Below, piece by piece: positions 12,568 to 14,947 of a stretch of DNA of 64,000 bases. The notes below the pieces were generated by a model that had not been told where the DNA came from, made no database searches, and saw nothing but the letters and a program-made list of their open reading frames with translations. Source of the stretch: Halostella pelagica (GTDB lineage: Archaea > Halobacteriota > Halobacteria > Halobacteriales > Natronoarchaeaceae). Where the stretch lies: assembly GCA_005954745.1 (NCBI GenBank), contig CP040678.1, positions 2,914,001-2,978,000 on the forward strand, written 5' to 3'. Every line of letters starts with the position of its first letter. Within the stretch, counting starts at the first letter, position 1. Made by a program: the position numbers and the translations under genes.

Positions 12568-13299
12568 ATGCCTACCGAGACGGCCGCACTTGTCGGCGCG
12601 ACTGGCGGCGCAGGGTCGACCCGACTCTCAGTCGAAGTCGCCGCGACGCTCTCCCGCGACGACCGCGACGTCGCGGTGTTCGACGCGGCGTTCGCTACGC
12701 AGGGACTCGCACACTACGTCGACGACCGGGTCGAGCCGGACGTAACGACGCTCGTAACTGACGAAGACACGGCGCTCGACGACGCGCTGGTCGAGATAGA
12801 CACGCCTCAATCCGGTCGGGTCGCCGTCTGTCCGGCCCGTGCCGCGTTCGCCGCCCTGGCCCGAGCGAAAACCGCCGGCGCGGCCGAGCGGTTCGGCGAC
12901 GTAATCGACGCCGCCGCCGAGACGTTCGACCACGTGCTGGTCGACGCGCCGCCGGTGTCGACCAACCCGGCGGTCGCCGCAGTTACCGACGTAAACAACG
13001 TCGGCGTCGTGATCCCCGCCTCGCACCGCGGCGTCGATTCGCTGCAGCGCCTCCGTGGACGACTGGCCGACGTCGGTACCGACGCTGACCTCGTCGTCTC
13101 GAACCGCGGACGCGACCCGGTCGGCGAGGCGGACATCGCAGTACCCGAAAGCGAGGTCGTCCGCGCCGAGAACGCCCCGGCGTGTGCGGATCCCGACCAC
13201 GAGTTCGGCCCCGCAGTCGCCGACATCGCCGAGGAACTGTTCGAGGTGATGCTACATCTCGATTTCCCCGAGGAGTCGATGCTGTCGGACGTACTGTGA
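12568..13299 (+). CDS. MinD/ParA-like protein lacking the Walker A lysines
   Basis: The 243-residue protein has the fold outline of MinD/ParA (SIMIBI) ATPases: an N-terminal strand and loop, AVFDAAFATQGL as the switch I region, DHVLVDAPP as the Walker B-like switch II, and VVIPASHRGVDSLQRL later. The deviant Walker A motif, normally KGGxGKT, reads GATGGAGSTR at residues 10-19, so both lysines are missing. It may bind nucleotide weakly or serve as a non-hydrolysing partner. The context does not name a role: a HIT gene is upstream and an uncharacterised gene is convergent downstream. Confidence 0.75.
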   Translation: MPTETAALVGATGGAGSTRLSVEVAATLSRDDRDVAVFDAAFATQGLAHYVDDRVEPDVTTLVTDEDTALDDALVEIDTPQSGRVAVCPARAAFAALARAKTAGAAERFGDVIDAAAETFDHVLVDAPPVSTNPAVAAVTDVNNVGVVIPASHRGVDSLQRLRGRLADVGTDADLVVSNRGRDPVGEADIAVPESEVVRAENAPACADPDHEFGPAVADIAEELFEVMLHLDFPEESMLSDVL

Positions 13300-13385: not shown

Positions 13386-13889
13386 TTACAGGAGGTCGTC
13401 GACCGAACTCATCGTCTCGTCGAGCGGATCGTCGCCGTACCCGCTGTCCGAGAGAACGCCCACGACCGCGTCAGCGGCCGCCGGTATCGGGTCGTGGGTT
13501 TCGATGTAAGCGGCCAGTGCGAACTCCGTCTCCGACCCTCCAGTGAGCGTCAGCGCGTCCGCGCGGGGTAGCTCTGCGGCGATCCAGTCCCGGACCACGT
13601 CGCGCTGGCGCGGCGTGAGCGGCGACACCCCCTGTACCCCGAGGCGGTGGAGCGCCTTCGCCGCCGTCATCGGCGCGATGCCAGCAGATCGTCCCGCCGA
13701 CCCGACGCTCGCCCCGTCGGCGTACGCTTCGACGACGGCCGCCGCCGCGGCGGGATCACACGGGAGTTCGGCCTCGTAGTCCGACAACTGCGCCGCCAAC
13801 GTGTCTCCGGTGTCGTCGACAGTGGCCACGCCGCGGTCCCGCTGCTCGGCGGTGACCTCTATCCCGGCGGCGATATCCGACAGCGCCAT
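13386..13889 (-). CDS. uncharacterised haloarchaeal protein with possible HTH
   Basis: The 167-residue soluble protein has no recognised enzyme signature. The middle segment GASVGSAGRSAGIAPMTAAK (about residues 59-78) has the spacing of a resolvase-like helix-turn-helix. The surrounding helices (AAAAVVEAYADG and KALHRLGVQG) would fit a small DNA-binding module. The gene is divergent from the TFB gene, and a long palindrome lies midway between the two starts, which would suit a regulator acting on both; this is inference. Confidence 0.6.
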   Translation of the reverse strand: MALSDIAAGIEVTAEQRDRGVATVDDTGDTLAAQLSDYEAELPCDPAAAAAVVEAYADGASVGSAGRSAGIAPMTAAKALHRLGVQGVSPLTPRQRDVVRDWIAAELPRADALTLTGGSETEFALAAYIETHDPIPAAADAVVGVLSDSGYGDDPLDETMSSVDDLL

Positions 13890-13959
13890 AGCCGAACTGC
13901 TCGCTCCAGCTGTTAAAAATCACCGATCAACCTTCCGGAATCTACCGCCCGGCGCACCA

Positions 13960-13984
13960 GAACGTACCGGTAACCGGTACGTTC
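13960..13984. promoter_or_regulatory. perfect 25-base palindrome between divergent genes (operator candidate)
   Basis: The half-site GAACGTACCGGT at 13960-13971 is mirrored exactly by 13973-13984 around a single central A. It lies about 40 bases upstream of the TATA-like box of the TFB gene and about 40 bases from a TATA-like run (minus strand, near 13911-13919) of the divergent gene, the position expected of a shared operator. Confidence 0.6.
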
Positions 13985-14024
13985 AATTCGCCGATATCCG
14001 TGTTCGTTCCCGCGATGGTCGTTC

Positions 14025-14033
14025 TTTAAATAA
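14025..14033 (+). promoter_or_regulatory. TATA box of the TFB gene
   Basis: The sequence tttaaataa lies 27-35 bases upstream of the ATG at 14060, so transcription would begin close to the start codon. Confidence 0.6.
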
Positions 14034-14059
14034 GTCGTCCGGACGAAGTTCCGACTGTA

Positions 14060-14947
14060 ATGAGCACCACAGGTTCGACGCGAGGCTGTCCGGAGTGCGA
14101 CGGGCGGTTGAACGAGAGCGGCGACGAGACGGTGTGTGACGAGTGCGGACTGGTAGTCGCGGCCGACCGGATCGACCGCGGGCCGGAGTGGCGGTCGTTC
14201 AGCGACGACGAGACGAACCGCAAGCGGACGGGCGCGCCGCTGACCCGGTCCAGACACGACCGCGGCCTCTCGACCGAGATCGGCTACGGGACGGGGTCGA
14301 GCACGCGACTGACCGGTCGGAAGCGCCGGCAGGTCGCCCGGATGCGCCGGGAGCACAATCGGGCGCGGATCCCGTCGAAGTCCGACCGCAACCAGGTGTA
14401 CGGATTCACCGAGATCCGACATCTGGTCAGCGCGCTCTCGCTTCCCGACAGCGTCCGCGACCGCGCGTGCACGCTATTCGAATCCGCCCAGTCCGAGGAC
14501 CTACTTCAGGGGCGTTCTATCGAGGGGTTTGCGGCCGCGGCGGTGTACGCGACCTGCCGTGTCGAGGCGGTCTCGCGTACGCTCGCCGAGGTAGTGGCCG
14601 ACGCCCGCGCTGACGAGGACGAACTCAAAGCCGCATACGACGCACTGAACCGCGACTTAGGGCTACCGACTGGACCGATCGACCCCCACGAGTACCTCCC
14701 GCGGTTCGCCAGCGAACTCGGCTGCTCGCGCGCTGTCGAGCGCCGCGCACGGGAGTTCGCGGACGATGCTCGCGACCGCGGCGTCGTCGGCGGGCGCAAT
14801 CCAGGCGGCGTCGCGGCGGCCTGCCTCTACGCCGCCGACCGCGAACGTCACGGTAGTCTGACCCAGGCCGAGGCCGCCGAGGCGGGCGGCGTCTCGCCCG
14901 TGACCCTTCGCTCGGCGTACTACGCTGTGACCGGAAAAGAGAACTAA
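14060..14947 (+). CDS. tfb: transcription initiation factor TFB
   Basis: This archaeal TFIIB homologue recruits RNA polymerase to TBP-bound promoters. Its 295 residues contain an N-terminal zinc ribbon (Cys10, Cys13, Cys26, Cys29), a B-finger/linker region (PEWRSFSDDE, GAPLTRSRHDRGLSTEIG), and two cyclin repeats, the first around SIEGFAAAAVYATCR and the second around NPGGVAAACLYAAD. Haloarchaea usually have several TFB copies with different promoter preferences; this copy is a little shorter than the usual 310-330 residues. The gene is monocistronic behind a clear TATA box, and the palindrome at 13960-13984 may control it. Confidence 0.95.
   Translation: MSTTGSTRGCPECDGRLNESGDETVCDECGLVVAADRIDRGPEWRSFSDDETNRKRTGAPLTRSRHDRGLSTEIGYGTGSSTRLTGRKRRQVARMRREHNRARIPSKSDRNQVYGFTEIRHLVSALSLPDSVRDRACTLFESAQSEDLLQGRSIEGFAAAAVYATCRVEAVSRTLAEVVADARADEDELKAAYDALNRDLGLPTGPIDPHEYLPRFASELGCSRAVERRAREFADDARDRGVVGGRNPGGVAAACLYAADRERHGSLTQAEAAEAGGVSPVTLRSAYYAVTGKEN

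Follow-up and report, generated by a model that had tools for sequence, protein, structure and literature searches.

Haloarchaea have several TFB genes, whose products are thought to select which promoters are read, and to our knowledge it is largely unknown how individual haloarchaeal TFBs are switched on. In Halostella pelagica, a long perfect palindrome lies between one such gene and a divergent neighbor, which raises the question of what reads this palindrome and with what effect on the TFB gene. The locus was analysed within a stretch of 64,000 nucleotides (the window), and all positions below are window coordinates.

The palindrome and its flanking genes

The palindrome GAACGTACCGGTAACCGGTACGTTC occupies positions 13960–13984, belongs to neither strand, and consists of GAACGTACCGGT, a central A and ACCGGTACGTTC, forming a perfect 12-bp dyad around one base. 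It sits between a minus-strand gene of the DUF7858 family and the plus-strand TFB gene. The initial annotation had described an exact 25-base palindrome between these genes, about 40 bases from each of two divergent TATA boxes, and both descriptions held: the distance is 40 bases to the TFB TATA box TTTAAATAA (14025–14033, plus strand) and 40 bases to the DUF7858 TATA box TTTTTAAC (13912–13919, minus strand, letters read on that strand). A pattern scan allowing up to 3 mismatches gave 1 match in the window and 0 matches in 100 shuffles. The next-longest odd-centred perfect palindrome of the 64 kb window has an arm of 10 bp, and by our own estimate from base composition a palindrome like that at 13960–13984 is expected about 0.01 times in 64 kb by chance. 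A genome-wide search for the half-site had been proposed in the annotation. At E ≤ 0.02 the site profile matched the genome at 13960–13984 only, and 1 additional place fits the 15-bp core with one mismatch. Judging by position, we rejected an RNA hairpin or terminator, since the palindrome is upstream of the TATA boxes of both divergent genes.

The TFB gene (14060–14947, plus strand) encodes a TFIIB-like general transcription factor of 295 residues. A zinc ribbon (PF08271, 39.4 bits) and PF00382 (123.2 bits in two stretches) identify the protein as a TFB/TFIIB, and it scored 250 bits with the NCBIfam TFB model, under the cut-off of 384 for that model. Several TFB paralogues are found per genome (2–10 matches), and the window TFB forms its own class among those of its genome. 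The gene order HIT, MinD/ParA-like, DUF7858, TFB is common to many relatives; in the window, the MinD/ParA-like ATPase, the usual neighbor of DUF7858, is encoded at 12568–13299 on the plus strand. In Haloferax volcanii, passages of two papers name MinD1 as HVO_0225 (PMC11588486) and a TFB variant as HVO_0226 (PMC13286277), and going by gene order these probably belong to the same cassette as the one in the window.

The neighbor gene (13386–13889, minus strand) encodes a protein of 167 residues belonging to DUF7858 (PF25257; 242.7 bits, cut-off 27), which is the likely ligand of the palindrome. A possible helix-turn-helix (HTH) had been noted in it. In favor of this, the window protein matched HTH_28 over residues 51–96 (17.3 bits, below the cut-off of 25), 13 of 61 DUF7858 members matched the same family at E ≤ 0.05 but under the Pfam cut-off, and an AlphaFold2 model built from 61 sequences (mean pLDDT 84.3; 95 or higher, by block, for residues 31–140) contains helices only, among them two HTH-like three-helix units predicted at 46–82 and 93–131. 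The folds nearest to the model are mostly DNA-binding HTH proteins, with weak Z values of 5.0 or less. The HTH_28 matches, themselves weak, and the model are compatible with a DNA-binding protein. A Foldseek search of the PDB with the model gave nothing at E ≤ 0.001, a sequence search for a solved relative found none, and the Lrp/AsnC, TrmB and similar families gave no Pfam match to the window protein (E ≤ 1) or to the 61 members (E ≤ 0.05). We read DUF7858 as a small HTH regulator, probably acting as a dimer. Its N-terminus (the first ~27–30 residues) and C-terminus are well conserved with low model confidence; our guess is that they may serve as contact arms.

Co-occurrence of the site with DUF7858

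The DUF7858 gene was detected in 153 of 253 Halobacteriales genomes (E ≤ 0.001) and in 24 of 196 genomes drawn across the phylum, all 24 within Halobacteriales. Loci with the DUF7858/TFB gene pair came from named Halobacteriales, in line with a haloarchaeal window. A divergent TFB gene was present at 107 of the 110 DUF7858 loci examined first, a set that includes five recognised pairs representing one genome under two labels, and the palindrome was present at those loci. Its conservation where the gene pair is conserved had been named as a check; the palindrome is kept across the order and tracks DUF7858. The consensus half-site is (G/A)AACnTACCGGT.

Changes in one half-site were mirrored in the other at 10 of 12 positions among 34 diverse sites chosen by hand. 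Across the dyad, 43 cells changed on both sides, compared with 16.0 ± 2.7 after shuffling, and the co-variation score was 0.317, with slid controls reaching at most 0.098. A congener of the window species (L004) carries the symmetric variant CCTATAATAGG, and Halomarina carries the symmetric variant GTGTCGGTNACCGACAC. On both arms of the Halomarina-type sites (L110, which is Halomarina rubra, L202 and L275), the half-site GTGTCGGT stands in place of GTACCGGT, a candidate for a natural change of specificity. Such paired changes are the pattern that would be expected if one protein reads the site twice.

A total of 204 TFB genes of this class were compared for the presence of the site. It was found at 123 of the 125 genes in genomes with DUF7858, vs 0 of the 79 orthologues in genomes lacking DUF7858; the latter were drawn from two samples, one of 14 genomes that includes incomplete assemblies and one of 65. 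One of the two misses has a run of N upstream of the TFB gene, an assembly gap (L181, the MAG of L132), and at the other (L259) the site has decayed next to a DUF7858 gene that is itself degenerate. The same genome sometimes appears under two loci; recognised pairs were removed before the tree and spacing counts, and a few (e.g., L156/L258) may remain. The site profile was built from the first 107 loci and later DUF7858-bearing loci were scored separately: these scored above 17 except L202 (the symmetric variant) and L259, with L315 and L316 at 12–13.

The TFB tree shows 6 changes of DUF7858, and independent pairs number 3 on supported branches and 6 on all branches. In the 3 supported pairs the site follows DUF7858 in nearly all draws, with a sign-test p of 0.25, too few pairs to decide alone. 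Where the site would be expected, at -86, one genome lacking DUF7858 (G195) retains a decayed version that scores 8.4, whereas none of 316 control windows scores above 0.2. In another (G238, locus L224), HIT and MinD are retained beside the TFB gene and both DUF7858 and the palindrome are absent. Two genomes (G140 and G212) have weak DUF7858 matches, no TFB of this class at E ≤ 1e-90 and no site; there the pair seems to decay together. MinD was considered as the factor tied to the site and was rejected: G238 has MinD and neither DUF7858 nor the site, and many site-bearing loci have no MinD in the fetched flank, so MinD is dispensable for the site.

When whole genomes were searched with the profile at E ≤ 0.02, 18 of 20 DUF7858-bearing genomes matched and 0 of 14 genomes lacking DUF7858. 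The 20 genomes had one place in 14 cases, two in 2, 5–8 in 2 and none in 2, the last being G083 and G017, of which G017 has a variant site. A global regulator with many sites was unsupported, as many strong sites were found only in one genus, g2 (5 places in G005 and 8 in G007). Some of the sites of this genus (L172–L174) are inside reading frames encoding PVTV-like peptides and may be a coding coincidence. Others (L166 and L167 in G007) precede genes and are followed by TATA-like stretches at, or close to, the 41-bp spacing described below. Among the extra palindromes L166, L167 and L170 (the last in G005), one has a TATA-like stretch exactly 41 bp on and precedes a gene resembling those of MBL-fold hydrolases; extra palindromes also lie near thiL-like and aroC-like genes, these names coming from translations as read. 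The regulon seems enlarged in this genus.

The two genes are apart in 8 genomes (G017, G055, G069, G196, G237, G253, Halorientalis salina and Halosimplex aquaticum). The site was retained at the TFB promoter in 8/8 of them, and the 300 bases before the separated DUF7858 gene contained no site in 8/8. The 41-bp spacing was kept at the six separated loci that were laid out (L062, L065, L179, L180, L187 and L274), with a T run in L065 that leaves the first base of its TATA box ambiguous. Since separation leaves the site with the TFB gene, DUF7858, if it is the binder, acts in trans; and since the separated DUF7858 gene has no site in front, self-control would be optional and not the core function.

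Residue-level co-evolution gave no support to DUF7858 as the binder, since its columns associated with site letters no more than TFB columns did: mutual information over 114 nonredundant pairs (L007 and L047 were left out for an internal stop in the translation as read) was dominated by relatedness, and mean z was 1.97 for DUF7858 columns vs 2.14 for TFB columns at site letters ±7, and 1.95 vs 1.96 at ±8.

Layout of the TFB promoter

The distance from the palindrome edge to the TFB TATA box is nearly constant. Among 129 loci it was 41 bp in 119, 40 in 4, 42 in 4, 43 in 1 and 26 in 1, which places the site upstream of BRE/TATA, where archaeal upstream activators bind. The spacer in the window (13985–14024, no strand) is 40 bp long, a length found in the window species and one congener. 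The letters of the spacer are unconserved, and the A/T fraction by column ranges from 0.05 to 0.78 in 83 nonredundant spacers, with peaks at 14, 23–24, 33–34 and 43 from the palindrome centre. A 10-bp wave accounts for 65% of the column variance, above all 20,000 column permutations, and the phasing power was 0.619, compared with 0.333 at the 99% level of 3,000 column permutations taken at their best period. The phase of the wave was identical in all eight groups printed, which mix NCBI families with group codes and may overlap. As a control, 55 TATA-aligned TFB promoters of genomes lacking DUF7858 had a phasing power of 0.047. On the other side of the palindrome from the phased spacers, toward the DUF7858 gene, the power was 0.103. 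On that side, distances step by ~10–11 bp (offsets near 30, 41, 53 and 62) and the Rayleigh values are small when the data are collapsed by genus; with clusters treated as single events p was 0.003 (three clusters) or 0.096 (four), so that helical phasing on the DUF7858 side is suggestive only.

The core promoter of the TFB gene is also distinctive. In the literature, the BRE is characterised as A-enriched (PMC7289017). In the window no A-rich BRE precedes the TFB TATA box, and an A at -4 was found in 7% of 68 TFB promoters of the DUF7858 type vs 60% of 55 TFB promoters from genomes lacking DUF7858. A stretch between the TATA box and the start codon (14037–14051, plus strand; consensus about WTCGGGMCSAAGYTY) is kept in the DUF7858-type promoters, whereas TFB promoters from genomes without DUF7858 do not show it; it might be an initiator or act as another operator. 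These features read as a weak core promoter that would be aided by a factor bound upstream, acting over DNA able to flex readily in a single plane.

Proposed role of DUF7858 and the alternatives

Taking the sequence comparisons together, we consider it fairly probable that DUF7858 binds the palindrome, presumably as a dimer, and thereby governs the divergent TFB gene, most probably as its activator. DUF7858 is the likely binder because the site is kept only in species with DUF7858. Activation is preferred because the site is upstream, the spacing is exact and the A-rich BRE is missing, as written of archaeal activators, which according to sections of two papers bind upstream of BRE/TATA (PMC6737238, PMC13286277). 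In the mechanism we infer, a DUF7858 dimer would sit on the palindrome, and its essential target would be the TFB promoter without an A-rich BRE. Because A/T-rich spots recur every 10 bp, the spacer should bend easily toward one face, and the bent or looped spacer, far shorter than the persistence length of DNA, would let the dimer contact TBP, TFB or RNA polymerase. Where the two genes are adjacent, DUF7858 may also control its own gene from the shared site. DUF7858 would then be a dedicated on-switch for one general factor, a reading drawn from the fact that most genomes examined hold one strong site, and the TFB would in turn set its own regulon. A regulator whose single target is a general factor would agree with the suggestion that the neighbor stands high in a regulatory network, a suggestion that has to be tempered, as this TFB is one of several paralogues.

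We also put forward, tentatively and with more doubt than belief, that the palindrome, the 41-bp phased spacer, the TATA box without an A-rich BRE and the conserved pre-start stretch form one pre-bent promoter module of ~80–90 bp. The DUF7858 dimer and TBP-TFB would share the curved DNA, the activator would replace the BRE contact and possibly recruit the encoded TFB, and the outcome would be a self-sustaining on/off switch for the entire regulon that the TFB specifies.

The most serious alternative, which we rate as unlikely, is that DUF7858 is a repressor whose dimer silences the promoters on both sides, or covers the TATA box by spreading or looping, in an autorepressed pair that buffers TFB dosage. 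A shared operator between divergent genes is a common arrangement for repressors, the protein is HTH-like, and the conserved sequence that precedes the start codon could serve as a second operator. Against repression, the site stands clear of TATA, BRE and start, 41 bp before the TATA box; its spacing to the TFB TATA box is held to the base; and the promoter lacks the A-rich BRE of its counterparts in DUF7858-lacking genomes, as if it needed help. Moreover, autorepression is not the conserved function, because separated DUF7858 genes carry no site.

Less probable still is that a third regulator, or the TFB itself, binds the palindrome and that DUF7858 has another role in the same pathway. The co-evolution analysis, which did not point to DUF7858, leaves room for such a binder, the assignment to DUF7858 being indirect. 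The TFB alone is unlikely to be the binder because 79 genomes have the TFB and no site, and a third regulator would have to share the losses of DUF7858 and be limited to one site in the majority of genomes. An architectural role of the site and phased spacer, with the divergent promoters insulated by a nucleoid protein or a histone-like wrap and no specific regulator involved, is very improbable: 10-bp A/T phasing is typical of bendable, wrapped DNA, but the letter-specific 25-bp dyad with compensatory half-site changes, the strict link to DUF7858 and the presence of only about one copy per genome speak for specific recognition. A chance palindrome, for which only the symmetry of the letters in the window speaks, is refuted by order-wide conservation at a fixed distance.

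The regulator that we favor, an activating DUF7858, can be compared with several known systems. Bacterial activators such as CRP at class I promoters need the correct helical phase; they would share with DUF7858 an upstream dimer site and a spacing in helical turns, whereas here the machinery is the archaeal TBP/TFB, the spacing is held to about one base pair and the spacer is phased.

Among archaeal regulators, Tar (TK0271) of Thermococcus kodakarensis likewise has a palindromic site upstream of BRE/TATA, in the portion of the report that describes it (PMC6737238). Tar and DUF7858 are alike in being suspected HTH-type proteins, a likeness of description and not of aligned sequences. Tar controls several biosynthesis operons, whereas DUF7858 would have one target, a general transcription factor, across a fixed 41-bp phased spacer. 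The haloarchaeal CsmR of Haloferax volcanii has a palindromic site by core promoter elements and was inferred to be a positive regulator (PMC13286277); it is Lrp/AsnC-like, with the motif TATCA(N4)TGATA and many targets, whereas DUF7858 matches no such family. The target TFB is one paralogue of the old haloarchaeal TFB expansion (classes TfbA–G), and the section on this expansion in PMC4230888 describes no dedicated regulator of a TFB gene. In the open-licence literature searched, DUF7858 was not found by name, nor was the core of the site in four spellings. Upstream palindromes with archaeal activators are thus already known; what would be new, as far as our searches go, is a regulator dedicated to one TFB, with one site in most genomes and a phased spacer whose length is exact almost to the base.

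Because such a regulator would have one site in most genomes, the control of one TFB regulon becomes testable. The nearly base-exact spacing and the A/T phasing also hint, in precise mechanical terms, at the way an archaeal activator could reach TBP/TFB from upstream. If true, the proposal would supply a function for an uncharacterised Pfam family that is found in more than half of the Halobacteriales genomes searched.
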